Assembly (NCBI GenBank): GCA_023380955.1
Contig: JAMCTB010000034.1
Span: forward strand, 1 to 21,784
Direction: 5' to 3'
Origin: Chloroflexota bacterium
GTDB taxonomy: Bacteria; Chloroflexota; UBA6077
Length of the DNA stretch: 21,784 bases
Part shown: positions 3,472-21,749 of the stretch, one piece after another
Layout of the letters: every line of letters starts with the position of its first letter
How positions within the stretch are numbered: position 1 is the first letter of the stretch
Made by a program: the position numbers and the translations under genes
The notes under the pieces: model-generated
The model's database searches: none
Seen by the model: only the letters and a program-made list of their open reading frames with translations
Told to the model about the DNA's origin: nothing

Positions 3472-3530
3472 GTTCATATCTCCCATCTCTTGGCTTGCCT
3501 CTACGGTATCTCGATGGATGCCGGCGATTG

Positions 3531-4010: not shown

Positions 4011-4076
4011 CTTTCCTCCTGCGCGTTTCCTGTCCGCTTGAATGCTGTCGGGCCCGTTCGCCTCACAGCTAACGGT

Positions 4077-5789
4077 CTATCCCCATCTACCCTGGCCCAG
4101 GTCTCCGGGCCGGCTCTTCCACCCCGGATCGAGGACGAGGGTACCGATGCGCATCTTGCCGTCGGCATGTTTCAGCGTGACGGCCTTCAGCCATTGAGCG
4201 TCGTCTCGCTCCGGATGGTCTTCTCGATAGTGGCTGCCCCGGCTCTCGGTGCGGAACAGTGCCGCGCTGGCCACTATCTCGCCCACCAGAAGGAGGTTGT
4301 GCAGCTCTGCCGCCTGCTGGACCTCCAGCGGGGTGGAAGCGGAGAGCTTCGGCTCCATCTCCTCGCGGACCTGGCCCACCGTCCCCAGGAAGCGATTGAG
4401 GCTATCGGCAGAGCGGGCGATCATGACGTCTTCCCACGCCCGTCGCTGCAGGATGGCCGTGACATCGCAGGGCCGCAGTCCGTCACGGCGGCTGCGGTAC
4501 CCCTCGATTCGCTGAAGGTAGGCCGACACCTGGTCGGCGAGTGGCTCCTGCCGGCCGCTTCCGCGGGCCGTCATAGCCGCGTGCTTCCCGGCCCTGGCCC
4601 CAAAGACCAGGGTGCAGGCCAGCATACACCCACTCAGCCGGTCGACGCCGTGGTAGCCGGACCCCGTCTCCCCCGCAGCGTAAAGGCCGCGCACCGCGGT
4701 CTGGGCATTCTCATCAAGCCGTAGGCCGCCGTGCGAGCATTGCTCCGCACAGTTCACCTGAAATGGCTCCCGGCGGGGGTCCAGACAACGATACCAGAAG
4801 AACTCCAGGGAATCGGGGCCGAGGTCGTCACGGTCGCTGACGTCCATCCCGAAAGCCATGTTCGTGTTGGCCCGCCCTGCGATAGTCTCCTTGACCATAG
4901 CTATCGAGGCGTAGCGCGATAGGCTGTCCCTGGTGCTGAAGGGGCCGTGGCGGAGGTGCTGCACGATGAGCTCTTCCATAGTGGCGCCGGCAGGCAGGTA
5001 GTCCTGGATGAAGTGGCGGCCCTCACGGTTGGTGACGGTCTTCAGGTAGCGGGCGAACGCGCCGCTCAGGAAGGTCTTGCCCGGATAGACCGAAGAGATG
5101 TAGCTCTGTCCGAACTCCATATTCATAAGCTCGGCCCCCGCCCGGTAGCCCATCGCGTAGCCGTCGCCCGTCACGCACGAGGGATCGAGCGTGTGCATGT
5201 AGAGATTGCCGTGCCCGCCGGTGGCGAGGATGACGGCCGGGGCTTTGATCGTCCAGGTCTCCCCGCTCTCGTCGACCGCCACGGCGCCCACGCAGGCCCC
5301 GTCGCGGGTGAGCAGGTCGGTAACCATCGTCCTCTCCTTGAGGACGATGTCTGAGTGGCGGATGGCATTTTCCAGCACGATCATCATCGGTATGCCGTGG
5401 GACTTCACCCCCATTCCGCTGTCCCAATTGTGGGTGAGCCCCAGCTTGTCCATACCGAGGCGGGCGTCCTCCGCCTCCTCCGCCAAGATGCGGGCGAGCC
5501 TGGGGTCGGCCATGCCGAGGCCGGCCTGCACGATGTCCTCGTACATCTGCTGGGCCGTATATTTCGCGAAGCGGGGCGAGACGCCCGGGGCGCGGAAGCC
5601 GCCCGATTCCGAGTTGGCGCTGCCGGTAGCGCCTCCGCCTCTAGTCCCGATAGAGGCGAAGCGGCCCTTGACCGCCATCAGAACCCGGGCGCCTGCCTGA
5701 TAGGCCGCCCAAGCCGTCGCGGCCCCGGCTCCCCCGCCGCCCACCACCAGGACATCGGTCTCCAATATGTTGCCGCTGGCCTTAGCCAC
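4077..5789 (-). CDS. FAD-dependent fumarate reductase/succinate dehydrogenase flavoprotein-like oxidoreductase
   Basis: The 570-residue protein starts at GTG 5789, with GGAGG 9 bases upstream. A dinucleotide-binding loop (VVGGGGAGAATAW, about 15-27) opens the FAD domain; a second FAD block is ILATGGHGNLY (187-197), and GLYAAGETGSGYHG (368-381) closes it. STRDSLSRYAS (285-295) aligns with the catalytic Arg region of fumarate reductases, and RGSHYREDHPERDD (517-530) is the family C-terminal signature. The His that carries covalent FAD in SdhA/FrdA is absent; the segment reads GTRGGGATGSANS. FAD is therefore probably non-covalent. No iron-sulfur or membrane-anchor subunit is nearby, and there is no signal peptide. 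It probably reduces or oxidises a C=C bond of a carboxylate or CoA ester made by its neighbours; a true fumarate substrate is unproven. Confidence 0.88.
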   Translation of the reverse strand: MAKASGNILETDVLVVGGGGAGAATAWAAYQAGARVLMAVKGRFASIGTRGGGATGSANSESGGFRAPGVSPRFAKYTAQQMYEDIVQAGLGMADPRLARILAEEAEDARLGMDKLGLTHNWDSGMGVKSHGIPMMIVLENAIRHSDIVLKERTMVTDLLTRDGACVGAVAVDESGETWTIKAPAVILATGGHGNLYMHTLDPSCVTGDGYAMGYRAGAELMNMEFGQSYISSVYPGKTFLSGAFARYLKTVTNREGRHFIQDYLPAGATMEELIVQHLRHGPFSTRDSLSRYASIAMVKETIAGRANTNMAFGMDVSDRDDLGPDSLEFFWYRCLDPRREPFQVNCAEQCSHGGLRLDENAQTAVRGLYAAGETGSGYHGVDRLSGCMLACTLVFGARAGKHAAMTARGSGRQEPLADQVSAYLQRIEGYRSRRDGLRPCDVTAILQRRAWEDVMIARSADSLNRFLGTVGQVREEMEPKLSASTPLEVQQAAELHNLLLVGEIVASAALFRTESRGSHYREDHPERDDAQWLKAVTLKHADGKMRIGTLVLDPGWKSRPGDLGQGRWG

Positions 5790-5868
5790 TGCCTATATCC
5801 TCCATCTAAAACAAAGTCGATCGGTCCGGCGCTCCCGCCTCGCCTGGGCGTGGGGGGTAGAAGCAGCC

Positions 5869-7053
5869 TCAGATGACTTTCTGCGCCTTGAGCTCTGCTA
5901 TCTCATCTGCGCTCAGCCCCAACAGACCTCCATAGATCTTCTCGTTGTGCTCGCCGAGCATTGGGGGCGGTCCCGGCTTTGTCTTCGCCGCCCGCTCCAT
6001 CTTCAGGGTCACGCCGGGTGCCCACAGCTTGCCCGCCTTCGAGTGATCAACCTGGATGAACATCTCACGATGCTTGACCTGCGGGTCCTCCACCATCTCG
6101 GCAATGTTCTGTACTGGCCCACACGCCACCTCCGACTCGCTCAATGTCTCCACGACTTCTGCGCGCGTCCGGCTGCCGACCCACTCGTTGATGATAGCAT
6201 CCAGTTCTTCCCGGTGCAGGTGGCGAGTCTTCCGGTCACTGAACCGGGGGTCCACCAGCACCTCCGGATGGCCGATGGCCTTCATAAACCGGTCAAAGAT
6301 GACGCCGCGCTGGCCCGATATTTGCACATAGCCATCCTTGGCTTTATACGTGTCGCAAGGGACGCTGTCGACGCGAGTGTTGCCCACATGGCTTAACACC
6401 TTGCCGGTGTGCAGGTAGATCGGCACGAAGTACTCGAGCATGGAGACCATGCCGTCCAACAAAGAGACGTCGATGTGCTCGCCGTCACCTGTCGTATCTC
6501 GCCTGCGGAGAGCACCCAGCACTCCGACAGCAAGATAGAAGCCCCCGATGTAGTCGCCGATGGCGACACCTACCTTGACCGGCGGGTTGCCGGGGAAACC
6601 GGTGAGGTCCATCATACCGCCCACAGCCTGGACCACCATATCGAAGCCGGGGCGCGGGGCATAGGGACCATCCTGGCCGTATCCTGTCAGCGAGGCCACG
6701 ATGATGCGGGGATTGATCTTCCTGAGGGCCGGGTAGTCGATGCCGATCTTCGCCAACGTCCCGGGACGGTAGTTCTCGGTTATTACATCGACCTTCTTCA
6801 CCAGCTCACGGAAGAGCTGCTTGCCGCGCTCAGTGCGCAGGTTCAGCGTGATTGACTCTTTGCCGCGGTTGTATGAGGTGAAGTACACGCTCTCCCCATT
6901 GATCTGCGGGTTTATGTTGCGCGTATCATCACCGTGCAGGCCTTCGACCTTGATCACTTCGGCCCCCAGGTCGCTCATCAGCATCCCACCAAAAGGGCCG
7001 GCGTGGACGCGTGCCAGCTCCAGCACGCGCACGCCTTCCAAACACTTCGGCAT
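5869..7053 (-). CDS. CaiB/BaiF (family III) CoA-transferase
   Basis: The 394-residue protein is a full-length family III CoA-transferase, moving CoA between carboxylic acids through an aspartyl intermediate. N-terminal signature: LEGVRVLELARVHAGPF and SDLGAEVIKVE. The central block HIDVSLLDGMVSML contains the expected catalytic Asp (about residue 200). The C-terminal part has VACGPVQNIAEM and RTRAEVVETL, as in homologues. The start is set at ATG 7053 because GGAGG sits 8 bases upstream; an in-frame ATG five codons earlier contains that GGAGG within its own coding sequence. It lies 79 bases before the flavoprotein gene, probably in the same transcript. Donor and acceptor acids cannot be read from sequence; the flavin reductase and hydratase neighbours suggest an unsaturated or dicarboxylic acid. 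Confidence 0.92.
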   Translation of the reverse strand: MPKCLEGVRVLELARVHAGPFGGMLMSDLGAEVIKVEGLHGDDTRNINPQINGESVYFTSYNRGKESITLNLRTERGKQLFRELVKKVDVITENYRPGTLAKIGIDYPALRKINPRIIVASLTGYGQDGPYAPRPGFDMVVQAVGGMMDLTGFPGNPPVKVGVAIGDYIGGFYLAVGVLGALRRRDTTGDGEHIDVSLLDGMVSMLEYFVPIYLHTGKVLSHVGNTRVDSVPCDTYKAKDGYVQISGQRGVIFDRFMKAIGHPEVLVDPRFSDRKTRHLHREELDAIINEWVGSRTRAEVVETLSESEVACGPVQNIAEMVEDPQVKHREMFIQVDHSKAGKLWAPGVTLKMERAAKTKPGPPPMLGEHNEKIYGGLLGLSADEIAELKAQKVI

Positions 7054-7081
7054 TCTTCGATCCTCCATAGTCGACCAAGGC

Positions 7082-7101
7082 CTGCCCGTCGGCCCGGGCA
7101 G
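7082..7101. repeat. short GC hairpin upstream of CoA-transferase gene
   Basis: CTGCCCG (7082-7088) pairs with CGGGCAG (7095-7101) around a 6-base loop, about 30 bases upstream of the CoA-transferase start. No T-tract follows in the minus direction. It may affect translation or read-through from the solute-binding gene. Confidence 0.35.
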
Positions 7102-7171
7102 ACCTCGTTGTTAGTTGTTGCTTGCGTATTCCACTGGTCGCACCAGTTGCCCAATGAACAGTCTTATATTT

Positions 7172-7231
7172 GGGCCGCCGAATACCAGCTCAGACCTCCC
7201 AGGTCGCCTGAGATGGCGCATTCGGCGGCCC
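7172..7231. repeat. 60-base nested inverted repeat between solute-binding and CoA-transferase genes
   Basis: Twelve-base perfect arms, GGGCCGCCGAAT (7172-7183) and ATTCGGCGGCCC (7220-7231), enclose a second stem: CTCAG pairs with CTGAG, and inside it GACCT pairs with AGGTC around CCC. The element lies in the 281-base gap after the solute-binding protein stop and before the CoA-transferase. There is no poly-T on the minus strand. It fits an intercistronic stabilising or partial-termination hairpin that would leave the binding protein more abundant than the enzymes. That role is inferred. Confidence 0.65.
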
Positions 7232-7334
7232 GTGCGACCGATCCCTCTTGCCTGTCGTCGCACTCCAGCGGGCAAACGCCCCTGCGTCGCCCGCCAGTGT
7301 CAACTACACACCTGCAGCACCGGCAGGCCGGCGG

Positions 7335-8999
7335 CTATCTGTCGAGCCACGCCCCCCGCAGCCAGGGGTACTTCCATCCCCACTGGTAGCCCTTGACTGA
7401 TTTCTGGACCGCATCGTAACGCATACCGTACCACGTGGTGGTGAAATAGGCATTTTCATACACGATCTGCTGGCAGCGCTCGTATATCTTCTGGCGCTGG
7501 TCCTTGTCGTAGGTGCTGCGGCTCTCTTCCATGCAGGCATCCATGTCTTTGTTGCTCCATCCGTTCCAGTTCCATACTGCATTGGTCACGAATTGCTTCG
7601 ACAGGAGGTCTGGATCGGGGTCCAGGTTGCCCATAAATTGTGTCATATCGTAGTCTCCCGGTGGCTTCGAGCTGACGATGCCTACCCAGGCCACTCGCTC
7701 CATCAGGCTGAGCTTGCTGCGGATACCCACGTTCCGCATCATCTGGTCGACAGCTTCCGCTGTGCGGTCATCCGGCTTACGGGCGATGACGATGAATTTC
7801 ATATCGATCCCGTTCGGATATCCTGCCTCGGCCAGCAACTGCTTGGCCTTGTTCGGATCGTACGTGTACCGCGGCAGCTTGTCATTGTAGCCAATCTGGT
7901 ACTTGCTCCAGAAATAGTACGAGCCGACGCCCAGGTCTCCGGCAATTGCCTTGCCGACGCCATCGCGATCGATGGCATAGAAGACGGCGTCGCGTAGCTT
8001 CTTGTTCTGCGCGAAGGGACCGTTCGAGGTGTGGATGGCCAGATTGTAGTTGCGGCCCGACCAGGGGTTGGCGTAGAGCGCCAGATTGGGCTGTGTCTTC
8101 AACAGCGGCACCTGGTCCAGCGGCACATCCGAGACGAGGTCCAACTGGCCCGCCCGCAGGTCGATCAGGCTCACGGTGACGTCCATGTTGTACTTGAAAG
8201 AGACGCCGTCGAGGTACGGCAGCGGCTTGCCATCCGCCCCCTTCTCCCAGTATCCGTCGAAGCGTTTCACGTTGACGCTTTGGTCCTTCACCCAGTTGAC
8301 GAACTGGAAGGGGCCGGTGCCCGACGGGTGCTGCCCGAACTGATCGCCATACTTCTCCGCCTGCGCCTTCGAGACTATGAAGGGGAACATATCTGTGGCG
8401 GTCAGGTTCGTAAGCAGGGGGGCCGTCGGGGCGCTCAGATTGAGCCGGATGGTGTAATCGTCGACCACATCTACGCTTTTGATGTTGGCCACGTGGATCT
8501 TAGCGCCGGACTTGGGACCCTGCATGCGCTCAATGTTCCACTTGGCTACGTCAGCATTGAAGTCGCTGCCGTCGTGAAACTTGACGCCCTTTCGCAGCTT
8601 GAGCACGATGGTCGTCGGGTTGACGATTTCCCACGACTCGGCCAATTCCGGCCTCAGCTCGAAGTTGTCGCCTTTCTCGTTGACGTAGCCCAGCAGCGAG
8701 TTGTACATCAGGTGCATCACGCCGGAAGTGCCGGACTGGTAGTGCGGGTCCATCGTGATCCAGGCCGATATCTCGTTGACATTCAGTGTGCCGCCCCGCT
8801 TGATGTTGGCGGCAGGGGCCGCGGCCGTAGGGGAAGCCGCGGGCGCTGCGGCTGTGGGAGCCGACGTCTTAGGCGCAGCGGGCGCCGCTGAAGGGGTAAG
8901 CGGGGCTTGTGGCGTGGCCGGCCCGGCCGGCGCACAAGCCCCCAACGCAACTAAGAGTATTACCGCTACGATTGTCTTAAGACCAATGGTTACTCGCAT
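7335..8999 (-). CDS. ABC transporter solute-binding lipoprotein, family 5 (peptide/opine/nickel type)
   Basis: The 554-residue protein is a full-length extracytoplasmic binding protein of SBP family 5. A signal peptide ends in LGAC with lipobox Cys22. An Ala/Pro/Thr-rich linker follows (about 23-65), then the mature domain beginning RGGTLNV. Family features include ESWEIVNPTTIVLKLRKGVKFHDG split over about 100-130, HPSGTGPFQFVNW, and KKLRDAVFYAIDRDGV. It would capture a solute for an ABC importer, but no permease or ATPase gene is present in the window. The ATG at 8999 has GAGGGAAAAGGG just upstream. It follows the GntR regulator by 141 bases on the same strand and is a paralogue of the protein at 10455-12134. 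The ligand is not predictable; catabolic neighbours suggest it serves their pathway. Confidence 0.92.
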   Translation of the reverse strand: MRVTIGLKTIVAVILLVALGACAPAGPATPQAPLTPSAAPAAPKTSAPTAAAPAASPTAAAPAANIKRGGTLNVNEISAWITMDPHYQSGTSGVMHLMYNSLLGYVNEKGDNFELRPELAESWEIVNPTTIVLKLRKGVKFHDGSDFNADVAKWNIERMQGPKSGAKIHVANIKSVDVVDDYTIRLNLSAPTAPLLTNLTATDMFPFIVSKAQAEKYGDQFGQHPSGTGPFQFVNWVKDQSVNVKRFDGYWEKGADGKPLPYLDGVSFKYNMDVTVSLIDLRAGQLDLVSDVPLDQVPLLKTQPNLALYANPWSGRNYNLAIHTSNGPFAQNKKLRDAVFYAIDRDGVGKAIAGDLGVGSYYFWSKYQIGYNDKLPRYTYDPNKAKQLLAEAGYPNGIDMKFIVIARKPDDRTAEAVDQMMRNVGIRSKLSLMERVAWVGIVSSKPPGDYDMTQFMGNLDPDPDLLSKQFVTNAVWNWNGWSNKDMDACMEESRSTYDKDQRQKIYERCQQIVYENAYFTTTWYGMRYDAVQKSVKGYQWGWKYPWLRGAWLDR

Positions 9000-9140: not shown

Positions 9141-9839
9141 TCACTGATGGCCGTCCATTTTTATCTTCGCGATGAAAGCTCCTTTGATGCCGGCGACGTG
9201 CCGCCGCACTGCATCGACGGCCGCGGCGACGTCTCTCGCCCTGAGGGCCTCGTAGATTCGCCGGTGCTCCTGGATTGGGCCTTCGCGCGAGTATGCAATG
9301 ATCCGGTTCACCATTAGAAATGCCTTGACGTGCACGTTCAACTGGCGATACAGCGCCTGCGCCCTGTGGTTGGGCCATAGGGAGACCAGGTATTCGTGCA
9401 GGGCCCTGTCGGCCTCCCTTATCCTCAACTGAAACTCGTGGTCGCTTTTCCTGGCGTCAATAGCAGTGTAGCTGGCTTCGTACTCCTCCAGAAGGCGACG
9501 GAGCTGGTCCAGGAACTCGTCGTCGACGCGATCAATGCCCTGCTGGACGGCGTGGACTTCTAAAGTCGAGCAAATATCATACAGCTCGAGCACCTCGTCA
9601 GTCGTCGGGGCGAACACCCGGGGGCACATTCCCGGCTTGAACTCCACCAGCCCTTCGCCAGAGAGCCGTTCGAGGGCGCGTTCGACGGGGGTGCGGCTTA
9701 TGCCCAGGATAGCGGCAAGGTCTTTGGCACGAAGGGGGTCGCCGGGCTTGAGCTCGTGAGAAACAATGCTCTTTAGAAGAGCTTTGTAAGCCAGGTCAGC
9801 AAGTGTGGTCTTGGTGTCATGCAAGTCTACGCTCTGCAT
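9141..9839 (-). CDS. GntR family transcriptional regulator, FadR/FCD subfamily
   Basis: The 232-residue protein has an N-terminal winged helix (about 12-78) with the GntR pattern LRAKDLAAILGISRTPVERALERLSGEGLV. A helical FCD ligand-binding domain (about 85-220) follows. Candidate metal or ligand positions in the FCD domain are Asp133, His170, His192 and His214; these are assigned from spacing, not alignment. Such regulators usually sense a carboxylate or related metabolite and control adjacent catabolic or transport genes. The gene lies between two solute-binding genes, and its strong promoter is divergent from that of the second one. It probably controls both directions and itself. There is no strong Shine-Dalgarno before ATG 9839, although GGGG lies a few bases upstream. 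Confidence 0.9.
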   Translation of the reverse strand: MQSVDLHDTKTTLADLAYKALLKSIVSHELKPGDPLRAKDLAAILGISRTPVERALERLSGEGLVEFKPGMCPRVFAPTTDEVLELYDICSTLEVHAVQQGIDRVDDEFLDQLRRLLEEYEASYTAIDARKSDHEFQLRIREADRALHEYLVSLWPNHRAQALYRQLNVHVKAFLMVNRIIAYSREGPIQEHRRIYEALRARDVAAAVDAVRRHVAGIKGAFIAKIKMDGHQ

Positions 9840-10203: not shown

Positions 10204-10454
10204 GCTTGATGCTGGTTTCATTATTGATTGGAGGGAGCAGACAGTGTGAACGTAGTCCATCGTGGCAAGTCACGGCGGCCTCGGGGCTGCTAAGCAATAG
10301 CCGCTTTCGGATGGTATGGGTGACCAGAAAGGAGATTGTATCGGTGTCTTAGATTGCCATTCGTGACATATCTGCCGGATGGTAGCCATCATCCCCTTTG
10401 ACCGGCCTAAATATCGTTAAACGTGAAGCTCGGACAAGAGAAGAGGAAAAGGCA

Positions 10455-12134
10455 ATGAGAGCGATCTTTTACCTGACGATCATCGCTGTGTTAGCACTGC
10501 TAGTGGCCTGTGCCTCGTCGGCACCGACGGCCACGCCTGCCGGGTCGGCGCCAGCCGCCACCAAGCCGGCGGCAGCTACCGCAGCCCCTAAAGCTGAGCC
10601 GGCGGCCACTTCCAAGCCGGCAGCGCCGACCGCCGCGCCCGCTGCGAACATAAAGCGAGGCGGCACGCTTCGGGTGGGCGTGCAGAACGACTGGGTGGGC
10701 CAGGACCCAGCGGCCACCACCGTGGACTCCCCATCCTTCGGAATGATGTACGAGGCCATGGTCTTCTGGCGGCCGGATGCCAAGGGCATCTGGGGGCCGA
10801 CCCCCGGGCTGGCCACCGAGTGGGACTTGCAGGGCAAGACCGCTACCTTCAAGCTGCGAAAGGGTGTGAAGTTCCACGATGGCAGCGACTGGAACGCCGA
10901 GTCTGCTAAGTGGAATCTCGACCGTCTCCTGCAACCAAAGTCCGTCAGCCCGGACTTCAAGGAGGCTGCCCAGAGCGTCGACATCGTGGACGACTACACC
11001 ATCCGCATCAACCTGAAGATCCCCTACGCGCCCTTGCTGGAGGTGCTTTCGGACGACCAGCAGAACTACTGGATGGCATCCAAAGCCTACGCGGAAAAGA
11101 ACGGCCCCGACGCCCTCAAACAGCACGCTGTGGGGACCGGGCCCTTCCAGTTTGTTGAGTGGAAGACCGGCGACAGCGTGACTACGAAACGATGGGACAA
11201 CTACTGGATGCAGGGTGCCGACGGCAAGTCGCTTCCCTATCTCGACGGCATTCTGTTCCGCTGGATAAGCGACGACTCTGTGCGGCTGCTGGAGATCAAG
11301 TCTGGCAATATCGAATTTACGGAGCTCATCCAGGGCAAAGATATCCCCGGAGTGAAGGCCGACCCCAACCTGATTTTCCTGGATGGGCCCTACAACGGCA
11401 ATATGTACCGGGTGATGCTGAGCGCCGAATCCGACCCCTTCGCTAGTAATTACAAGCTGCGCCAGGCGGCCTGGTATGCGGTGGATAGGGAGGCAATTGC
11501 GAACACGCTGGGTCTGGGGGCAGGCAAAGCCAGTAAGTACATGATCCTGCCCGGACAGATCGGCTACGACGAGTCAATACCGTACTACTGGTACGACAAG
11601 GCCAAGGCGGCACAACTGGTGAAGGATGCCGGTTACCCGAACGGCGTCGACCTGACGTACAGCGTGATGTCGCGAGAAGTGGACCGCCGGCAGGGAGAGA
11701 TGATCAAGCAGATGTGGGACGCCGTGGGCATCAGGACCACGATCGACGTCTTGGACCGGGCCACCTGGATGTCCCAGTTCACCCAGTCGGCGGGTAATGC
11801 GAAGCTTCAGGCCGGTAGCTGGCGCAACCCCAGCCTCACCGACCCGGTGCTGACCGTCCAGGGCAACTGGTGGAGCAAGGCCACGGGCAACCCTGCCCAC
11901 GAAAAGGACGCCGAAATCGACAAGTGCCTGGAGGAGGCCAAGACCACCTACGATAACAAGCAGCGACAGGACATCATGAAGCGCTGCCAGACGATGGACT
12001 TCGAGCGGGTGGCATACTACGCCACTCCGTGGTATCAGCCGTGGAACTGGGTACAGCGCAAGGAGCTCAAGGGAGTAGGTGCCAACTACAGCACCCGCAT
12101 CTGGCAGTTCCGGGAGGCCTGGCTGGACAAGTAG
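10455..12134 (+). CDS. ABC transporter solute-binding lipoprotein, family 5 (paralogue)
   Basis: The 559-residue protein starts at ATG 10455 with GAGG 8 bases upstream. This places the hydrophobic signal peptide at the N-terminus; a longer in-frame TTG start at 10398 would bury it. The lipobox is LVAC with Cys19, followed by an Ala/Pro/Lys-rich linker (about 20-63) and the mature domain beginning RGGTLRVGVQ. Family 5 features are KTATFKLRKGVKFHDGSDW, HAVGTGPFQFVEW and YKLRQAAWYAVDREAI. It shares architecture and many motifs with the binding protein at 7335-8999, including the linker end AANIKRGGTL. No permease or ATPase is nearby. It is divergent from the regulator and followed 185 bases later by the MtmB-like gene, so its ligand may be that enzyme's substrate; this is inference. 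Confidence 0.93.
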   Translation: MRAIFYLTIIAVLALLVACASSAPTATPAGSAPAATKPAAATAAPKAEPAATSKPAAPTAAPAANIKRGGTLRVGVQNDWVGQDPAATTVDSPSFGMMYEAMVFWRPDAKGIWGPTPGLATEWDLQGKTATFKLRKGVKFHDGSDWNAESAKWNLDRLLQPKSVSPDFKEAAQSVDIVDDYTIRINLKIPYAPLLEVLSDDQQNYWMASKAYAEKNGPDALKQHAVGTGPFQFVEWKTGDSVTTKRWDNYWMQGADGKSLPYLDGILFRWISDDSVRLLEIKSGNIEFTELIQGKDIPGVKADPNLIFLDGPYNGNMYRVMLSAESDPFASNYKLRQAAWYAVDREAIANTLGLGAGKASKYMILPGQIGYDESIPYYWYDKAKAAQLVKDAGYPNGVDLTYSVMSREVDRRQGEMIKQMWDAVGIRTTIDVLDRATWMSQFTQSAGNAKLQAGSWRNPSLTDPVLTVQGNWWSKATGNPAHEKDAEIDKCLEEAKTTYDNKQRQDIMKRCQTMDFERVAYYATPWYQPWNWVQRKELKGVGANYSTRIWQFREAWLDK

Positions 12135-12246: not shown

Positions 12247-12319
12247 GCTCCGAGGCGACACAGCCCGTGCGATAGGACTGGCTCTCGGTCAATGAGCTCT
12301 GACTCTAGGAGGATATATC

Positions 12320-13696
12320 GTGATCTCGTTATTGGACGTTGCCGAGCGGGCCCAGAAGGGTCCCAAGATGGACGACATGACGTGGAACATGTCTCTTTTC
12401 CACAAGATGAACGAGCTTGCCAGGCGGTACGATATCTGTGTTCCCTCCGACTGCTCGTATTTCAACGAGGACGAGGCCATACTGGACCGGGTCTTCCAGG
12501 CCGGCATCGACTTCCTGGTGGAGCGCGGGGTGTACTGCGTTACCACCAGCCGTGTGATCCAGTTCACGCGCGATGAGGTACTCCAGGCCATTCGCGAATC
12601 AATTCCCGCCGTGCCGGTGGGCTGCGGCCGCGACGTGCGGGTGATGCGCCAGCGCCGCATCGAAGAGCACGATGAATTGAACCAGGTCCCGGCCCTGCAC
12701 GCTCCCTACAGCGAGGAGCTCGCGCCTCTGGCGGTGAAGAACTACGCTCAGATCGCCACCGCCGACTATCTGGAAGGCTTCAACTTCAAGGTCACGGATG
12801 GGCGGGAGATCTTCGGGCTGCCGATGGAGGCATATGCCGCCCGGCGTGAGGTGGCCTGGCTGCGGGAGGGCATCCGCAAGGCCGGCCGCCCCGGCATGGG
12901 CATCGCCTTCTATCCCATCACGACCCGCGCCGCCGTCCTGGTGGCGCCAATGGACCCGGACTACGGCCTGCGCCGCACCGACGGGGTGCTGCTGACCGTG
13001 CTGCCCGAATTGAAGGTGGAACAGGATATGCTGACGGCGGCCATCGTCTACAACGACTACGGCTGCTTCGTGATCGGCGCCGCCGGGGGCACGGCGGGCG
13101 GGTTCGTCGGCGGGCTGGAGGGAGCGATGATCGAAGGGGTCGCCCGCGGCATCACCGGCTGGATGTGCTACCACGACGTCATCAACGGGGGCGGCGCCAG
13201 CAAGGTGGGTCCGAAGATGGCCACCAGGCTGGGCGTGGACCGGCAGTCGAGCTGGGCCTCTTCGGTGGTGTGCCAGGTGCTCAACACCAGGTTCCACACC
13301 ATACTTTACAGCGGGGGCTATACGCTGTCTGGACCGGGCACCGAGACGGCGCTGGTGGAGCGGGCCGTGTTCTCGGTGCGCATCCCGATCAACGGCTGCA
13401 ATGTAAGCTACCCGCGCCACTCCCGGGCGCAGGTCAACGCGGCCCAGACGCCGCTGGAGGCGGAGTTCGCCTGGGAGATTGCGCAAGCGGTGATGCGGAT
13501 GAAGATGACCCGGGCCCAGTGCGATGCGTTCTACGACAAGCTTGCGGCCTGGGCCACGGGCCGTGAGGCGGAGCCGGCGCAGGACGTGCGCGACTGCTAC
13601 GATTGGGTGCACCACCGGCCCAGCCCGGCCTACTATGAGAAGTACCTGCGGGTGAAGGACCAGCTCGCCAGCATGGGACTGCAATTCGCCGGCTGA
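12320..13696 (+). CDS. MtmB-family (monomethylamine methyltransferase-like) protein lacking pyrrolysine
   Basis: The 458-residue protein starts at GTG 12320, with a perfect AGGAGG 7 bases upstream. It resembles archaeal monomethylamine:corrinoid methyltransferase MtmB from end to end and has the same length. Shared landmarks are RVFQAGIDFLVERGVYC near 58-73, AGRPGMG at 188-194, LPELKV (Glu230), GGLEGAM (Glu267), Tyr334, SGPGTE at 337-342 and DCYDW at 425-429. In MtmB the residue two after GRPGMG is pyrrolysine, encoded by in-frame UAG; here Ala196 occupies that place and the frame has no amber codon. Glu230 and Glu267 match acidic residues near pyrrolysine in MtmB, as recalled. It may transfer a methyl group of another substrate to a corrinoid protein, as pyrrolysine-less MttB relatives do. 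No corrinoid protein or activase gene is in the window. The family is fairly sure; substrate unknown. Confidence 0.82.
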   Translation: MISLLDVAERAQKGPKMDDMTWNMSLFHKMNELARRYDICVPSDCSYFNEDEAILDRVFQAGIDFLVERGVYCVTTSRVIQFTRDEVLQAIRESIPAVPVGCGRDVRVMRQRRIEEHDELNQVPALHAPYSEELAPLAVKNYAQIATADYLEGFNFKVTDGREIFGLPMEAYAARREVAWLREGIRKAGRPGMGIAFYPITTRAAVLVAPMDPDYGLRRTDGVLLTVLPELKVEQDMLTAAIVYNDYGCFVIGAAGGTAGGFVGGLEGAMIEGVARGITGWMCYHDVINGGGASKVGPKMATRLGVDRQSSWASSVVCQVLNTRFHTILYSGGYTLSGPGTETALVERAVFSVRIPINGCNVSYPRHSRAQVNAAQTPLEAEFAWEIAQAVMRMKMTRAQCDAFYDKLAAWATGREAEPAQDVRDCYDWVHHRPSPAYYEKYLRVKDQLASMGLQFAG

Positions 13697-13909: not shown

Positions 13910-15289
13910 TTGGCAGAGGAACTCAAGGAAGAAGAGTTCTACGAAGAACATCGGCAGAGCCCAGTTCCGCGCGTAGCCGTCATATTCCTGGCCTTTTTCG
14001 TCGCAGGCGGATTGTACTTCGGCTACGTCTTCGTCCATACAACCATCACCATTTTCAGTGCCGCCTTCGCGTTGAACTGGGCCCCGCTGCCCCAGCCTCC
14101 CTTCCTCGACCCGATGGGTGTATCTTCCGATACGGCCTTCGGCTCGAGCGCTGCCGAGGGGGCCCCCTTGCCGGGGGGACGGGTCAACATCCTGCTGCTG
14201 GGAATAGACCAGCGAGATGATGAGCGACAGCGAGGCGTGCCCTCCCGCAGCGATACGATGATCCTCGTGAGCGTGGACCCGGCCACTAGGTCCGGGGGTA
14301 TTCTCTCCATCCCACGTGACCTCTGGGTCGCCATCCCGGGTGGATACAAGGACAACAAGATCAACGTGGCTAACTTCCTGGGAGATATGGACAAGCTGCC
14401 GGGCGGTGGACCGGCCCTCGCCAAGCGGACGGTCGAGCTGAACTTCGGCCTGCCAGTGCACTACTACGTGCGGGCAAACTTCCGCGGCTTCGAGAGTATC
14501 ATCGACGCTCTGGGGGGCGTGGACATCGACGTCCAAAAGCATATCCTCGATCGTGAGTATCCCACACAGGACTACGGTTACATGACGGTGGAGTTCATGC
14601 CGGGGATGCAGCATATGAACGGGGTGCGAGCCCTCCAGTATGCCCGCACTCGCCACGATGACAACGATTTCTACCGCAATAAGCGCCAGCAGCAGGTCTT
14701 GCTGGCTGCCCGCAATAAGCTAATGAGGATCGACGTCCTTCCCCGGCTGCCGGCCCTTCTGGGAGCGGCGAAGAATGCGGTGGACACCGACATACCTGTC
14801 ACGGCTATGCCGGGACTGGTGCGGCTGGCATCCGAGATCGACTCCTCTAACATCGTCAGCCTTGGCATCGATGCGACGATGGTAAGCGAGCGGTATCCGG
14901 GGTCCACCGACCTGGTGCCCAAGCGTGACCAAATCGCTAAGCTGGTGGCCCAACTGCTGGCCGATCCAACCCTGCGGAAGGAAAACGCGAGGATCGTGGT
15001 GCAGAACGGCACCAACCGCAACGGCGTGGCCTCCAAAGTAGGCGACTTCGTCGAGAAGCACGGGTATGTGGTGTCTCGAGTCGAGGACGCATCTCGCCAC
15101 GACTATGCCGAGACCCTGATCCTGGACCACTCCAGGAGCAAGAAGGCGACCCTGGCCGGGCTAGCCGCGCTGCTGAAGGTGCCTGCCCGCAACATAAGGC
15201 CGGCGCCAGCCTCTGACGACATCGATATCACCGTGATCGTGGGGGCAAATGGGACCGAAGTCCAGGCTGCGGGCCAGCCTGGCGGTTGA
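13910..15289 (+). CDS. LytR-CpsA-Psr (LCP) family protein with C-terminal LytR_C domain
   Basis: The 459-residue protein has a short acidic cytoplasmic N-terminus, one membrane helix (about 22-45) and an extracellular LCP domain (about 90-270). Conserved residues of the polyprenyl-phosphate site are seen: Arg113 and Asp115 in SRSDTMILV, Arg136-Asp137 in SIPRDLWV, then YARTRHDDNDFYRNKRQQQ (244-262). A LytR_C domain covers about 359-446 (ARIVVQNGTNRNG and following). LCP enzymes transfer lipid-linked glycopolymers onto peptidoglycan or another envelope acceptor. The start is uncertain: TTG 13910 keeps the membrane helix but has only a weak upstream GGGG. It is followed by two large GT-C-type membrane proteins, supporting a shared role in surface glycopolymer assembly. 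Confidence 0.9.
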   Translation: MAEELKEEEFYEEHRQSPVPRVAVIFLAFFVAGGLYFGYVFVHTTITIFSAAFALNWAPLPQPPFLDPMGVSSDTAFGSSAAEGAPLPGGRVNILLLGIDQRDDERQRGVPSRSDTMILVSVDPATRSGGILSIPRDLWVAIPGGYKDNKINVANFLGDMDKLPGGGPALAKRTVELNFGLPVHYYVRANFRGFESIIDALGGVDIDVQKHILDREYPTQDYGYMTVEFMPGMQHMNGVRALQYARTRHDDNDFYRNKRQQQVLLAARNKLMRIDVLPRLPALLGAAKNAVDTDIPVTAMPGLVRLASEIDSSNIVSLGIDATMVSERYPGSTDLVPKRDQIAKLVAQLLADPTLRKENARIVVQNGTNRNGVASKVGDFVEKHGYVVSRVEDASRHDYAETLILDHSRSKKATLAGLAALLKVPARNIRPAPASDDIDITVIVGANGTEVQAAGQPGG

Positions 15290-15387
15290 GAGGGCCGACA
15301 CCGGGCCTGAAGACCGGCATCATCAACGGGCATGCAGTTGTCTGCATTAGCGCGGCGCTGGACATAACACATTGGAGGCAGCGTGAG

Positions 15388-17733
15388 GTGGCTCGATTGA
15401 CGGCGGCTGCCCCCTGGGCAACAGCCTTTGTCCTGGTCTTCACCGCGTATTCGTTCTTCGTGCCGCCGGCCGGGCCAAACGAGCTTAGTCGATACGACCT
15501 GCTACTGGCGCTGGCACGCGACACCATCGACAAGGCGTCCGCTGGCGGCCACTATTACACCGACAAGGCTATCGGTACCAGCCTGCTTGGCCTGCCGTGG
15601 TGGCTGCTATCCGATCAGATTTACCGCTTCGGCCAGTACGGCGAGGTGCGCGCCGATTTCCAGCTCTGGACGGCCACCGTCGGGGCGGTCTCGCTGCCGT
15701 CGGCGCTGCTGGTCCTGCTGGTCTACTGCGTGGCGCGGACGCTTTCGGGCAGCCTGGGCCGCGCCTTGCTCACGGCGGGCGCCTTCGGCTTCGCTACCAT
15801 CGCTTTTCCTTTCGCTACAATGTTCTACGGCCACCAACCGGCCGCCATCTTCGGGTTCGCCGCCTTCGCCGCGGCATTCTACTGGCGACGACAGGCGCAT
15901 TCTTCCCCGTGGCTCCTGGGACTGGCCGGCTTCCTCGCCGGCTGGGCGGCCATCACCGAGTACCCCGCAGCCATAATCGGTGCCGTGGCCGCCGTCTACA
16001 TCCTCAGCTTCTCCGAGGGCAGGAAATCCTGGTGGGCGTACGCCCTCGGCGGACTGGTCGGCCTTTTGCCACTCGGCATCTACAATATGGTGGCTTTCGG
16101 CGCTCCCTGGCGGCTGGGATATGGCTTCGTGGGCGATTCGGCCTTCGCCGCGATGGGCATGGGGATCATGGGGGTGACCACGCCGAAGCTGAGCGCGCTG
16201 CTGGACATCACGATGGGACGGACCGGCCTGTTCAGCCGCTCGCCGTTTCTCCTGCTGGCCCTGGCAGGCTTCGTCTTCTGGTGGAGACGGGGCCAGTTCC
16301 GCAGGGAGGCGCTGCTATGCCTCGCCATCAGCATCGGCTTCCTCCTGTACAACGCCGGGTACTACCTGCCTCTGGGCGGCTACGGTGTGGGGCCGCGGTT
16401 CCTGGTCCCCAGCCTGCCGTTCCTGGTCCTGGGGCTGGCGCTGCTGCCGTGGCGAGGCTGGTGGCTGGCCTGTGCCCTCGTCCTGGTCTCGACGGGAATG
16501 ATGCTGATGACGATGGCGGCGCTGCAAACCGCTCACCCGGGTGATCCGAAAATGGAGGAGGCCGCGTCGGCCCTGATGCTGATCACCGGCGGCCGGCTCC
16601 CTCTCAGCGATCACCCCGACATGTCCGCGATAATGGGCCGCTGGTCGACGCACTTCGGGTTCGGCCAGGTGACCGTCACCTGGGGGACGCTGCGCTACGG
16701 CCTGGAAGGCGCGGCCAGCCTGGCGCCGCTGGCTCTGGTAGCGGGGGTCGGCCTGCTGGCGTGGCTGCTCTCATCCAGACGGACGCCGGGCCGCGGTGCA
16801 GCGCGTTCGGGGGTCCTGGCGCTCGCCGCGCTCGCCTACGGGGCTGTCTCGCTGCCCGGAGCCGGCGTCCCGCCCCTGTTTGCGCCGCCCGCCCTCGAAG
16901 CTCAGTTGACGGCCGGAAGGGCGCATCCTCTATCGATGGTGTTTGACGACCGTATCGAGCTTCTGGCCTACAGCGCGGACAAAGAGGTCCTCCGGCCGGG
17001 GGACCGTCTGGCATTGACTCTTTATTGGAGGGCACGGGTCCACATCGATGAGTCCGAGACTGTATTCGTCCACCTGCTGGACAGCGACAATGCGACGCTG
17101 GGAGGTTGGGATGGTGTGCCCCAGATGGGGACGTACCCAACTCAAATGTGGGAGCCGGGCCGGATCACGGCGGAAACCTATCGGGTGCCGCTGTCGACCG
17201 AGGTCGCGACGCCCACTTTGGTCCGCGTGGAGGTTGGAATGTACCGCTCCGCCGACTCCCAGCGGCAACCGGCCGCGACGCTCGAGGGAATCAAGCTGGG
17301 GAGCAGCCCGATGATCACTCGGCTGGCCGTGCCGGGGCCCACGCCGGACCTGCGGGGCGCAACTGCCCTGAGCACGGAGCTCGGGGGACAGGTGATGCTG
17401 GTCGGGTATCGGCTAGACGGTAGCGACCCCGACAAAGTGCGGGGCCGGCTGTACTGGCAGGCGGTGGGGCAGCGGCCGGCGCGAGACTACACGGTCTTCG
17501 TGCAAGCCCTGCGGGACGGGAAGCTGGCCGCTCAGTGGGATGCGCAGCCCCTGGGCGGCCGATATCCAACCTCGCTCTGGAGTCCAAGTGAGATAGTGGA
17601 GGTCCCATTCGAGCTGCCGCTGAGCACAGAGGGGAGGGCTGGTGCATCGCTTATCGTGGGGATGTACGATCTGGAAACAATGGAACGGCTGCCGGTGGGG
17701 GAGAAGACGTTTGTCGAGCTACCCTGGCCGTAG
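15388..17733 (+). CDS. multi-pass membrane glycosyltransferase-like protein with two C-terminal beta-sandwich modules
   Basis: The 781-residue protein starts at GTG 15388 with GGAGG 9 bases upstream; a TTG at 15286 overlapping the LCP stop is an alternative. About a dozen hydrophobic segments fill residues 1-510. The first extracytoplasmic loop contains NELSRYDLLLALA and HYYTDKAIGTSLLG, as in GT-C type glycosyltransferases using polyprenyl-linked sugars. Residues about 517-640 and 666-781 form two related soluble modules. Recurring elements are PGD..LTLYWRA, VFVHLLD, GTYPTQMW or GRYPTSLW, VPLS, and VEVGMY or VGMYD. The catalytic assignment is inferred from topology and loop residues; donor and acceptor are unknown. 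It lies immediately downstream of the LCP gene and is probably functionally linked to it. Confidence 0.78.
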   Translation: MARLTAAAPWATAFVLVFTAYSFFVPPAGPNELSRYDLLLALARDTIDKASAGGHYYTDKAIGTSLLGLPWWLLSDQIYRFGQYGEVRADFQLWTATVGAVSLPSALLVLLVYCVARTLSGSLGRALLTAGAFGFATIAFPFATMFYGHQPAAIFGFAAFAAAFYWRRQAHSSPWLLGLAGFLAGWAAITEYPAAIIGAVAAVYILSFSEGRKSWWAYALGGLVGLLPLGIYNMVAFGAPWRLGYGFVGDSAFAAMGMGIMGVTTPKLSALLDITMGRTGLFSRSPFLLLALAGFVFWWRRGQFRREALLCLAISIGFLLYNAGYYLPLGGYGVGPRFLVPSLPFLVLGLALLPWRGWWLACALVLVSTGMMLMTMAALQTAHPGDPKMEEAASALMLITGGRLPLSDHPDMSAIMGRWSTHFGFGQVTVTWGTLRYGLEGAASLAPLALVAGVGLLAWLLSSRRTPGRGAARSGVLALAALAYGAVSLPGAGVPPLFAPPALEAQLTAGRAHPLSMVFDDRIELLAYSADKEVLRPGDRLALTLYWRARVHIDESETVFVHLLDSDNATLGGWDGVPQMGTYPTQMWEPGRITAETYRVPLSTEVATPTLVRVEVGMYRSADSQRQPAATLEGIKLGSSPMITRLAVPGPTPDLRGATALSTELGGQVMLVGYRLDGSDPDKVRGRLYWQAVGQRPARDYTVFVQALRDGKLAAQWDAQPLGGRYPTSLWSPSEIVEVPFELPLSTEGRAGASLIVGMYDLETMERLPVGEKTFVELPWP
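16936..17730 (+). repeat. two protein-level beta-sandwich modules in the first GT-C-like gene
   Basis: Modules at about 16936-17310 and 17386-17730 encode the same pattern: a hydrophobic GY or AY strand, PGD-type turn, L-Y-W-R/Q-A strand, VFV strand, G-x-YPT-x-W turn, then a V-G-MY strand. They are diverged at DNA level, indicating old duplication. Confidence 0.65.
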
Positions 17734-17802
17734 CGTAGGAGGCGGACCAGGGTCGCCGGGCCCTGGCCTGGTGGCCCGTTCGACGACGTCCACGGCCCTG
17801 TG

Positions 17803-17831
17803 TTGTGGGGGTGGCGGTGGAGTGTTAAAAT
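17803..17831 (+). promoter_or_regulatory. extended -10 promoter upstream of the large membrane protein gene
   Basis: TTGTGG (17803-17808), a 17-base spacer, and TAAAAT (17826-17831) preceded by TG at 17823-17824 give a TGnTAAAAT extended -10. Transcription would start near 17838, about 180 bases before the predicted GTG. The -35 matches consensus only in its first three bases. Confidence 0.45.
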
Positions 17832-18017
17832 GCAGGCGGTGCGCCGAGGCCCCGGCAATGAATGATGATCCCGGGGCAATGCTTGTGCCGGCTACGTGGC
17901 GGGCGAATGCCAATTGACGGTGGAAGAGATTATCGCAACAGAACGAAAAAGCGGCTGCCATTTCAAAAGCGCGTCTCTTCGACGGCCCCGTGCTTCGTGT
18001 GATATGGCCCAGGCAGT

Positions 18018-21000
18018 GTGTTGCTGACGCGAGCGCGAAAGATCGGTTTGCCGTCCCGCCTGCAGGCTCCGGCAAAAGGCAGCTTCCCGTGGAGCCCGCT
18101 CTGGGTGGTAGTCCTGGCGGCTTTCGGGCTGGTCCCACTGACTCAGAGCCTGTTCTTCTCCTCCAGCGATGGACAGTTCCATCTATTCCGCTTGGTAGAG
18201 TACGATTCAGTGATGCGCCAGGGGGTGCTGGTGCCTCGATGGGCGCCCGACTTTTTCCTCGGCCTGGGGTACCCGCTCCCGAACTACTACGCGCCGCTCA
18301 CCTATTACCTAGGCGTCGCCGTTCACCTGCTGGGCTTCCCCTTCCTCGATACGATGCGCGTCCTGGCGGCTTTGGGGATGGTCCTGTCAGGATGGGGCGC
18401 ATACCTGTATGCACGACGGCTGCTGTCGTCTCCCACCTCGTTGCTGGTGGCCGCGGCCTATATGTTCGCTCCCTACCACCTGGTCAACCTCTACTTCCGG
18501 GGGGATTTTCCGGAGTATCTCGCGTTCGTCTGGTACCCGCTGATTCTGTACGGGGTCGGCGAGATATGGGAACGCCCGCGGCCTCCGGTGGTGTTGCTGG
18601 CTGCCGCCTCATTCGCCGGTCTAATGCTGACCCATAACCTTTCGGCCTTCCTGTTCGCTCCCCTCCTGGTGCTGTACGTTATGGCTCTTACCCTCACCAG
18701 CCTGCTCGATCGCAATTATCGGGGGACTCTGGCGGGCTGCTGTCGCATCGGCGGCACGCTGGCGCTTGGGGCCGCTCTCAGCGCCTTCTTCTGGGTGCCC
18801 GCAATGTGGGAGCAGGCGGACATCTCGATGGGCCGACTTCTCCAGGCCATGAACTACCGCAACCACTTCCCGGCACCGACCGACCTTCTTTCTACCGACC
18901 CGCTTCACCGGTACGGAATCGTGTTCCGCGGAGCAGAGGTGTTTGGGTACAGACTGGGACTGCTCCAAGCGGTCTTCTTGGCCCTGGGTCTGGTGGCAAC
19001 CGTCCTGGCCTGGCGCGGCCTCCGGAGAGATCTGCGCCGGGATGCCCTCTACAGCCTGCTGGTAGCTGCGATCGCGCTGTTTCTGATCTTCCCTGTCTCG
19101 GCTTCCGTCTGGGAAGCGTTACCTCTGCTTAGCTTAACCCAGTTTCCCTGGCGGTTCCTGGCCTATCTGGCCCTGCCCAGCGCCTTCCTGGCCGGTCTGG
19201 TCGTCGAGGCGATAGCACCCAGGTTGCGGCAGCCCCTGGCCTTCGGCCTCGCTCTCGCCTTCGTGGCGTCGGCCGTGCTGGCTATGCGGCCGATGATGAC
19301 CGCGTGGCTGGAAGAGGAGATGGTTGTGCCTACGGCTATGGAGTTCGAGCTCACGGATGGGGCCCTCGGGACCTCGGTCGCGGCCGAGTACCTCCCCCGA
19401 CAGTCGACTAACCCGCCGACCATTTCGACTTACGCCCTGGCGACGGTCACTGGCATGCCCGAGAGTGCTTTCGGACCCCGGAAGCAGGGCGACACCGATG
19501 TACAGTTGCTAGAGCGGGGGGCGGAGTCCCGAACATATGCCGTCAAAGCCGCCACGGGTCAGCAGGTAACCTTTGACCTGCTCTGTTTCTCGGGCTGGCG
19601 CGCCTGGCTCGACGGCGAGCCGGTCACCGTCAGCAGCAGTCCCTCCCAGGGGCTTTGCACGGTTGCCGTGCCCTCCGGCGACCACCAGGTACGCTTCGCG
19701 TTGGAGCGCACTGCCGCCCGCCGGGCCGCCGAGATGCTATCTCTCGCTGCAGTGGTGCCCGTCTTGCTGCTGCTGGCCATAACGCTGAACACCGCCGTCC
19801 GAAGACACAGGCGGCCCTGGACGCTAAAGATTCCCAGGCGGACGCTGGCGGCAAACATGGCACTGCTTGCTCTGGTCGCCACTGGATGGTGGCTCTTCAA
19901 GGTGTCCTTCGATCAGAGCTACAGCAGCCTGGGCTACGGGCACCCGCTCCAGGTGGACTTCGGGCCTGTAACCGTCGTGGGCTACGACCTGGGTGGACCG
20001 CAAGTGCTGCCCGGCCCGCGGCCGAGGGCTGCTCCAGGGGATGTTGTCACTGCCCGAATGTACTGGACAGCACGGAATGCCGACGCGGCTCGGACCGAGT
20101 ATCGCCCGTTCGCCGCCCTGATCAATGCGGCGAATCAGGTATGGGCCTACGGCGAGGGTGAGGCCGACATTGCGGGAGAGGTCCCCGGGCAGGGGCCCAT
20201 CCTCGACAGCCCGATGCGACTCGCGATCGCCACTGGCACCCCACCGGGCGTCTATCGCCTGGAGATGGGGTTTCTGGACCGGGAGGGCCATCGCCTGGAG
20301 CCACGCCGGTCATATGTAGTCCGGCTGATGCCGATGGACAATCGCATTCTGGTGGGACCGGTGGTGATTACGGAGGCCGGCCAGTCTCCGGCCGGCGCCT
20401 CCGCCAAGGCTTTGGCGAATTTCGACAATGTACTGGGTCTGTTGGAGGCACGGGTCACCGATGGGGAGTCCGCCCTGACCGGACGTCCGGGGCAGGAACT
20501 CCCCAGGTCTGCCGATGGCAAAGCGTTGAGGGCCGAGGCCGGGCAAATCGTGCATCTGGACTTGCTGTGGCGCAGCATGGCCGAGCGGCTGCCCGATGTG
20601 GTTGTGGCGCTGCGCTTGGTCGATGACTCGGGCTTCCTGTGGGCAGTGCGGGACAGCCGTTCTGCCGATGGGCGTTATCCGAGCTCATTGTGGAAGCAGA
20701 ACGAGCTGGTCAAGGACCAGCTCGACATACTGGTCCGTCCGGAGACGCCGCCGGGGGAGTACACTTTGCGGCTCGAGCTGGTCTCCGCGAGGGGTCCTTT
20801 GAATACCCTGGATGCGCAGGGCAAGGGCACGAATCCCTTCCTCGACCTTGGCAGAGTGAGCGTGGTGCGGCCCGCGGGGCCGCCCCGGCCCGGGCGGGAT
20901 ACCCCGCGGCGCTCGGTCGACCTGGCGCTTGCCGACGGGCTGAAGGTGGTAGGCTACCAGGTGGGCCCGGCCGAGGCCAAGCCGGGTACGCCCGTTCAGT

Positions 21001-21749
21001 TGGACATCTTCTGGCAGACTGGTGCCGGGGCGCTGCCAGACTACCGCTTCCGGGCTGAGCTGCGCGACTCCTCGGGCAAGGCGTGGGCCGCCTACCAGGG
21101 CCGGCCCGTCGGCGATGGTTATCCAACTTCTCGCTGGCATGCCGGCGAGGTGCTGCGCGGCCAGTACCACCTGCCGGTGTCTCCCCGGGCGCCCGCCGGC
21201 CCGCTGGACCTGTATGTCTGGATGGACCAGCCCCAGGTGACAGAGCCCGTCCTCTTTCGACTGGACCAAATCAGGGTGCCAGAGGTACAGCGCACCTACT
21301 CGGCGACGCCCAGCTTCGAGCGGTCCACGGACCTTGGCAGCGTGATGCGCCTGCTGGGATACGGCCTTGATGTCCAGCCTGGAGGACAGGTGGCGCCCGA
21401 TGGCTCCGCATCGGTACCGCCGGGCACCCGGCTGGACCTCAAGCTCTACTGGAAGGCCCTTGGGGAGACGGACACCAGCTACAAGGTGTTCGCCCAGGTC
21501 CTCGACGGGCAGGGGCGGGTCGTGGCCCAGCATGACAGCTTCCCCGCCGGGGGAGCGCGGCTGACCACCAGTTTGGTCAGCGGCGAAGTGATCGAGGACC
21601 TGCATACTATTGCCCTGCCCGCCAATCTGGCGCCGGGGCGTTACACGCTGATCATCGGCCTGTATGAGCCGATCAGCGGGGGGCGGCTATCCCAGGCGGA
21701 TGGCACTAATTTCGTTTCCCTGTCCGGCATAGAGGTGCGGCAACCCTAA
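18018..21749 (+). CDS. large membrane protein, PTPS-related/GT-C type, with four C-terminal beta-sandwich modules
   Basis: The 1243-residue protein begins with about a dozen hydrophobic segments (about 25-440). The loop motif SSSDGQFHLFRLVEY (about 52-66) and the stretch PNYYAPLTYYLG match the 6-pyruvoyl-tetrahydropterin-synthase-related membrane family. Despite its name, this family is a GT-C-like integral membrane group. A soluble segment near 510-565 (FSGWRAWLDGE, then VPSGDHQVRF) and two further helices follow. Four modules then cover about 645-770, 800-950, 968-1095 and 1103-1243, each with an L-x-W or LYW strand and a PG-x-Y-x-L strand. Three of them carry D-x-YR or SYKVFAQVLD-like strands. 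The GTG start at 18018 has only a weak AGGCAG upstream. It probably acts in surface polysaccharide or glycolipid assembly with the preceding two genes; the reaction is not known. Confidence 0.78.
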   Translation: MLLTRARKIGLPSRLQAPAKGSFPWSPLWVVVLAAFGLVPLTQSLFFSSSDGQFHLFRLVEYDSVMRQGVLVPRWAPDFFLGLGYPLPNYYAPLTYYLGVAVHLLGFPFLDTMRVLAALGMVLSGWGAYLYARRLLSSPTSLLVAAAYMFAPYHLVNLYFRGDFPEYLAFVWYPLILYGVGEIWERPRPPVVLLAAASFAGLMLTHNLSAFLFAPLLVLYVMALTLTSLLDRNYRGTLAGCCRIGGTLALGAALSAFFWVPAMWEQADISMGRLLQAMNYRNHFPAPTDLLSTDPLHRYGIVFRGAEVFGYRLGLLQAVFLALGLVATVLAWRGLRRDLRRDALYSLLVAAIALFLIFPVSASVWEALPLLSLTQFPWRFLAYLALPSAFLAGLVVEAIAPRLRQPLAFGLALAFVASAVLAMRPMMTAWLEEEMVVPTAMEFELTDGALGTSVAAEYLPRQSTNPPTISTYALATVTGMPESAFGPRKQGDTDVQLLERGAESRTYAVKAATGQQVTFDLLCFSGWRAWLDGEPVTVSSSPSQGLCTVAVPSGDHQVRFALERTAARRAAEMLSLAAVVPVLLLLAITLNTAVRRHRRPWTLKIPRRTLAANMALLALVATGWWLFKVSFDQSYSSLGYGHPLQVDFGPVTVVGYDLGGPQVLPGPRPRAAPGDVVTARMYWTARNADAARTEYRPFAALINAANQVWAYGEGEADIAGEVPGQGPILDSPMRLAIATGTPPGVYRLEMGFLDREGHRLEPRRSYVVRLMPMDNRILVGPVVITEAGQSPAGASAKALANFDNVLGLLEARVTDGESALTGRPGQELPRSADGKALRAEAGQIVHLDLLWRSMAERLPDVVVALRLVDDSGFLWAVRDSRSADGRYPSSLWKQNELVKDQLDILVRPETPPGEYTLRLELVSARGPLNTLDAQGKGTNPFLDLGRVSVVRPAGPPRPGRDTPRRSVDLALADGLKVVGYQVGPAEAKPGTPVQLDIFWQTGAGALPDYRFRAELRDSSGKAWAAYQGRPVGDGYPTSRWHAGEVLRGQYHLPVSPRAPAGPLDLYVWMDQPQVTEPVLFRLDQIRVPEVQRTYSATPSFERSTDLGSVMRLLGYGLDVQPGGQVAPDGSASVPPGTRLDLKLYWKALGETDTSYKVFAQVLDGQGRVVAQHDSFPAGGARLTTSLVSGEVIEDLHTIALPANLAPGRYTLIIGLYEPISGGRLSQADGTNFVSLSGIEVRQP
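19951..21746 (+). repeat. four tandem beta-sandwich modules in the large membrane protein
   Basis: Modules start near 19951, 20415, 20920 and 21325 and are the same type as the two in the preceding gene. The last is closest to the common pattern (GYGLD, LDLKLYWKA, YKVFAQVLD, APGRYTLIIGLYE). The second and third are more diverged. Confidence 0.6.

Follow-up and report, generated by a model that had tools for sequence, protein, structure and literature searches.

A pyrrolysine-free MtmB-family protein of a Chloroflexota bacterium, a probable corrinoid-dependent methyltransferase from a multiplied bacterial clade

What might a homologue of the monomethylamine methyltransferase MtmB do in a bacterium when its pyrrolysine is missing? 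The question is raised by a gene in a 21,784-nucleotide stretch of a Chloroflexota genome (contig JAMCTB010000034.1 of assembly GCA_023380955.1), the whole of which is referred to here as the window. The gene probably encodes the substrate-specific component (methyltransferase 1, MT1) of a corrinoid-dependent methyltransferase system, and belongs to a branch of the MtmB family that is bacterial and has no pyrrolysine. The features on which this reading turns are the following, with codons assigned from alignments with MtmB of Methanosarcina barkeri.

12320..13696, + strand: PF05369 (MtmB-family) protein without pyrrolysine, 458 amino acids (open reading frame, Pfam, phmmer and structural alignments)
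12307..12312, + strand: Shine-Dalgarno sequence AGGAGG, 7 bases 5' of the GTG start, read from the sequence
12905..12907, + strand: codon of Ala196, opposite pyrrolysine 202 (Pyl202) of MtmB
12989..12991, + strand: codon of Leu224, opposite Glu229 of MtmB
13079..13081, + strand: codon of Ala254, opposite Glu259 of MtmB
13319..13321, + strand: codon of Tyr334, opposite Tyr335 of MtmB; varies among paralogues

The reading frame is open throughout, with no in-frame UAG, and its product matches PF05369 at 172.8 bits against a cut-off of 25, spanning positions 2-450 of the 450 in the profile; this is far beyond chance. By phmmer, residues 6-456 pair with residues 11-458 of M. barkeri MtmB (1l2q; E 2e-32), in keeping with an initial annotation of the locus that had described the protein as collinear with MtmB and equal to it in length. 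The predicted fold is that of the MtmB TIM barrel, with 442-444 residues aligned at 22-24% identity to the M. barkeri structures 1l2q, 1nth and 1tv2, and the possibility of an unrelated TIM-barrel family, raised at the outset, falls away. PF05369 is the sole Pfam match at E 0.001, and PF06253, the MttB superfamily (COG5598), was not found in the protein.

The window gene is one of many. In its assembly (2.85 Mb, 196 contigs, 75% complete), PF05369 occurs at 15 loci on 12 contigs, none of them with internal stops. Two sets of homologues were compared with these copies: 119 near ones, kept at 430-490 amino acids from the best 120 of 525 matches to the window protein, and 31 full-length ones nearer MtmB, kept by length and read without a stop from the best 120 of 312 matches with MtmB as the query. 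Many of the 89 dropped from the second set are pieces of ~250 amino acids, as expected for a gene read only past its UAG. In a tree made by a quick method without bootstrap (39 of the 111 other near homologues, the 31 nearer MtmB, the 15 own copies and eight references), 12 own copies, all 39 near homologues used and a Spirochaetaceae sequence form one clade (SH-aLRT 100; stem of 1.18 changes per site), and copies C14, C171 and C22 group separately. The sixth copy of the related genome G003 (in L042) was left out, as the gene finder did not call it.

The 12 clade copies share 46-80% identity pairwise. For nine, the best match outside the genome is closer than the best own match (71-85% versus 54-79%), suggesting that most duplications are old and that the copies have been kept apart; C112c shows the reverse (own match 80%, outside 77%), and for C112a and C184 no such comparison applies, the nominal outside match being another own copy. 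Old, separately kept copies would fit different substrates without proving them. Within the phylum, with at most four candidates scored per genome, PF05369 was present in six of 400 genomes drawn, with 15 first-look candidates in the window's genome and six in the next, G003; under the same cap, matches above 33% identity to the window protein occurred in the window's genome alone. Labels among the near homologues are mixed: Chloroflexi/Chloroflexota (P0088, P0090, P0119), Gemmatimonadetes (P0037, P0064), Spirochaetaceae (P0057) and Moorella glycerini (P0097, 68% identical to copy C84). A scan of genome contigs with exact 8-residue patterns of the window protein, which reaches close relatives only, found a single relative, a Spirochaetaceae locus.

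Ala196 follows GRPGMG-I and is the counterpart of residue X202, the pyrrolysine of MtmB, just as the initial annotation had placed it, and each of the 12 clade copies has Ala or Val at this position. The surrounding pocket differs as well: Glu205, Glu229, Glu259 and Glu273 of MtmB are replaced by Pro199, Leu224, Ala254 and Gly268. Since the distances to the flanking Asp221 and Gly260-Gly261 are equal in both proteins, gap placement has no influence on which residues Leu224 and Ala254 are paired with. None of the 119 near homologues (eight of which are own copies) carries an acid at even one of these four positions, whereas 21, 22, 26 and 22, respectively, of the 31 homologues nearer MtmB do. 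The initial annotation was sound as an observation, and Tyr334 does align with Tyr335, but two residues had been mis-assigned: Glu230 and Glu267, offered as active-site matches, align with Glu235 and Glu272, which are common across the wider family, and not with the presumed pocket acids Glu229 and Glu259. The glycine opposite Gln333 of MtmB is recovered in some alignments, as Gly332 or Gly333, and is a gap in others.

These replacements bear on whether the protein might still be a monomethylamine methyltransferase, working without pyrrolysine. It has the family and length of MtmB and keeps Tyr335, and MtqB of Methanococcoides methylutens Q3c, a pyrrolysine-less MtmB homologue, methylates cob(I)alamin with monomethylamine at a low 11 nmol/min/mg, versus 37 with tetramethylammonium and 42 with choline (PMC13044021). 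Nevertheless, this is highly improbable given the loss of pyrrolysine across the 12 copies, the acids missing from all 119 near homologues and the oddity of so many copies for a single small substrate. With neither the acids nor pyrrolysine, the pocket speaks against monomethylamine; a substrate whose leaving group is already charged, for instance a quaternary amine, would suit it better.

A corrinoid-linked role is supported by copy C84, from the same clade as the window copy, which lies between two genes of corrinoid chemistry:

L015:5910-7238: C84 MtmB copy, same clade as the window copy
L015:4859-5527: corrinoid protein preceding the C84 copy; Pfam cut-off passed; carries DxHxxG, which we take to be a corrinoid-protein motif
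L015:7333-9123: RACo-type activase after the C84 copy; Pfam cut-off passed

Likewise, at the Spirochaetaceae locus (L027), whose MtmB-family protein is 53% identical to the window protein, a corrinoid protein gene follows 60 bases on, and then an MttB-family gene (L027:9489-10655, + strand; profile matched from position 129 on). The corrinoid proteins of C84 and L027 share 52% identity, versus 34-44% with seven others compared, and proteins aligning with them (by alignment only) adjoin four of the six MtmB-family copies in G003 and the one in G038. Adjacency to corrinoid genes, which the initial annotation had proposed as a check, is thus seen in these relatives, though not at the window copy, one of 14 among the 15 copies in its genome that have no visible corrinoid neighbour. 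The genome as a whole is not short of the machinery, whose absence had been named as a possible objection: it carries corrinoid proteins, RACo-type activases and methyl-tetrahydrofolate:corrinoid methyltransferases (Pfam cut-offs passed).

Genes for onward transfer of the methyl group are also present. C55 encodes an MtaA/CmuA-type protein (TIGR01463, 277.0 against a cut-off of 235.4), a second corrinoid protein and a methyl-tetrahydrofolate:corrinoid methyltransferase (NF005719, 271.6 against 259). C183 encodes acetyl-CoA synthase (ACS) alpha/beta (979.7 against 800), the large subunit of the corrinoid iron-sulfur protein (CFeSP; 582.7 against 306) and its small subunit (named by eye), a second methyl-tetrahydrofolate:corrinoid methyltransferase (262.6) and a RACo-type protein. 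Judged by sequence, the two sets suggest a route from corrinoid through tetrahydrofolate to acetyl-CoA. No match to MttB was found in the genome.

Upstream of the window gene lies a candidate for substrate uptake:

10398..12134 (likelier start 10455), + strand: family-5 solute-binding protein (SBP_bac_5), 185 bases upstream of the window MtmB gene

This protein is a possible uptake partner of the enzyme, and the existence of three such pairs in the genome (the window, C171 and C43) is suggestive of uptake. Under the methyltransferase reading, a methylated substrate, possibly delivered by the neighbouring binding protein, would bind in the barrel, in a pocket with fewer acids than MtmB has. The Co(I) of a shared corrinoid protein whose gene lies elsewhere in the genome (C84 or C55) would take up the methyl group, the pterin enzyme of C55 would hand it on to tetrahydrofolate, and it would end in acetyl-CoA. 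The 12 clade copies would differ in substrate; we infer one substrate per copy, and a quaternary amine as the substrate.

Several points weigh against this account. Its pocket argument presumes that Glu229 and Glu259 line the pyrrolysine pocket of MtmB, and presumes roles for Glu205 and Glu273 as well; no residue list for the MtmB active site was found in open-access publications. Six copies outside the clade come from the same order or phylum. Five of them (G003a, b, e and f, and G038) also have no acids at 229 and 259, and G003c has both; acid loss there is therefore not specific to the clade. Since corrinoid proteins adjoin four of the five acid-less copies (G003a, e, f and G038), acid loss alone does not equal lost corrinoid chemistry, but neither is an acid-poor pocket alone a predictor of a quaternary-amine substrate. 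The pairing with binding proteins is weakened by the 80 SBP_bac_5 (PF00496) loci in 2.85 Mb, and C171 of the three pairs sits outside the clade. The C84 corrinoid protein and activase reach no naming model in NCBIfam at cut-off (TIGR02370, 204.0 against 215.3; AcsV, 374.1 against 800), and of seven PF02310 loci in the genome the two that were scanned are of the two-domain methyltransferase type. Finally, a corrinoid gene adjoins just one of the 15 copies, or one of the nine with both neighbours visible, and none lies beside the window copy, which is flanked by SBP_bac_5 upstream and LytR-CpsA-Psr downstream.

This last point raises the alternative that corrinoid coupling is confined to the C84-type copy and that the window copy and other orphans have drifted to non-corrinoid TIM-barrel chemistry, perhaps in the breakdown of CoA esters or peptides. 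Consistent with drift, the neighbours of the copies include binding proteins, M20 and metallo-beta-lactamase-fold hydrolases, a DgaE-like lyase and, one small reading frame away, a gamma-glutamyltranspeptidase, and CoA-transferase, MaoC and fumarate-reductase-like genes lie near the window copy. Drift is nonetheless unlikely, as the window protein is conserved over its whole length with the C84 (48%) and Spirochaetaceae (53%) copies, and Eubacterium limosum is reported to have orphan MT1 paralogues that share one corrinoid protein (PMC12155760).

If the window protein is indeed a corrinoid methyltransferase, its substrate might instead be an O-, S- or halogenated C1 compound, a variant of the favoured account that appears somewhat unlikely. 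The acid positions of MtmB are equally without acids in this case, UroD-type proteins weakly resembling MtaA/CmuA lie near copies C86 and C43, and a pyrrolysine-less MtmB-superfamily protein is reported to have risen most in dichloromethane-grown cells of strain DCMF (PMC9768040). Against it, the sole function-tested pyrrolysine-less MtmB uses tetramethylammonium and choline (PMC13044021).

In the window, positions 3004-8999 and 9141-9839 (- strand) encode two MaoC-type proteins, a fumarate-reductase-like flavoprotein, a family III CoA-transferase, an SBP_bac_5 protein and a GntR/FCD regulator. These probably form a cluster for CoA-ester catabolism, which lies upstream of the SBP-MtmB pair and is divergently oriented. 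Positions 15286-21749 (+ strand) encode two long membrane proteins, glycosyltransferase-like by eye. Copy C16 adjoins a Cas5-family gene (PF09704; L022:8281-8862, - strand) and two apparent type I-C Cas genes, identified by eye. URO-D loci number 12 in the genome, one of them below cut-off; the protein adjoining C86 on the same strand (L019:7915-9072, - strand) and that one gene from C43 (L023:5795-6961, + strand) are weakly MtaA/CmuA-like, below that cut-off. A report on UroD-type clusters (PMC10418091) was considered and has no bearing on the clade.

The notion of a pyrrolysine-less MtmB that acts on a different substrate has been published before; what is new is a multiplied, acid-free bacterial clade with partial corrinoid context. 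Of the interpretation in the initial annotation, family membership and a corrinoid-linked role are supported, but the proposed new demethylase class had already been opened by MtqB (PMC13044021), and no corrinoid gene adjoins the window copy. More tentatively, an uncultured ACS/CFeSP bacterium might possess a dozen or more demethylases of the MtmB (not MttB) family with different substrates, one or two shared corrinoid proteins and partial pairing with binding proteins, its acid-free pockets replacing acid/pyrrolysine chemistry and opening methylated substrates new to corrinoid systems. If substrates do differ among the copies, anaerobes would be using a range of methylated compounds that still await description. 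Comparison of one fold with and without pyrrolysine could also probe the role of this residue, and the Moorella glycerini protein P0097 provides an entry point for testing the clade.

No description of the clade was found in the open-access literature examined on MtmB expansion or on MtmB in Chloroflexi/Chloroflexota. Annotations of mtmB in Chloroflexota are themselves not new, as one report lists corrinoid methyltransferase genes, mtmB included, in metagenome-assembled genomes that include this phylum (PMC11264602). M. barkeri MtmB shares fold and length with the window protein but has the pyrrolysine and the four acids that the latter lacks. MtqB, before which no pyrrolysine-less MtmB had a demonstrated function, comes from a study whose tree of 1,061 MtmB sequences was mostly left as function unknown (PMC13044021). 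Likened to the window protein by description, not sequence, it is a pyrrolysine-free family member working with a corrinoid protein, as proposed here; unlike the window protein, it is archaeal and methanogenic, adjoins its own corrinoid gene and has demonstrated activity. The DCMF protein, also compared by description, is bacterial and pyrrolysine-less, and its host is placed among Wood-Ljungdahl users (PMC9768040). Finally, E. limosum, also a Wood-Ljungdahl organism, is reported to encode 42 pyrrolysine-less MttB members, of which MtpB, MtcB and MtyB each methylate the one corrinoid protein MtqC, which MtqA then demethylates (PMC12155760). Those paralogues belong to the MttB (COG5598) family, whereas the window protein matches PF05369 only; by analogy, the window's genome appears to mirror E. 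limosum, with MtmB-family proteins in the place of the MttB paralogues.
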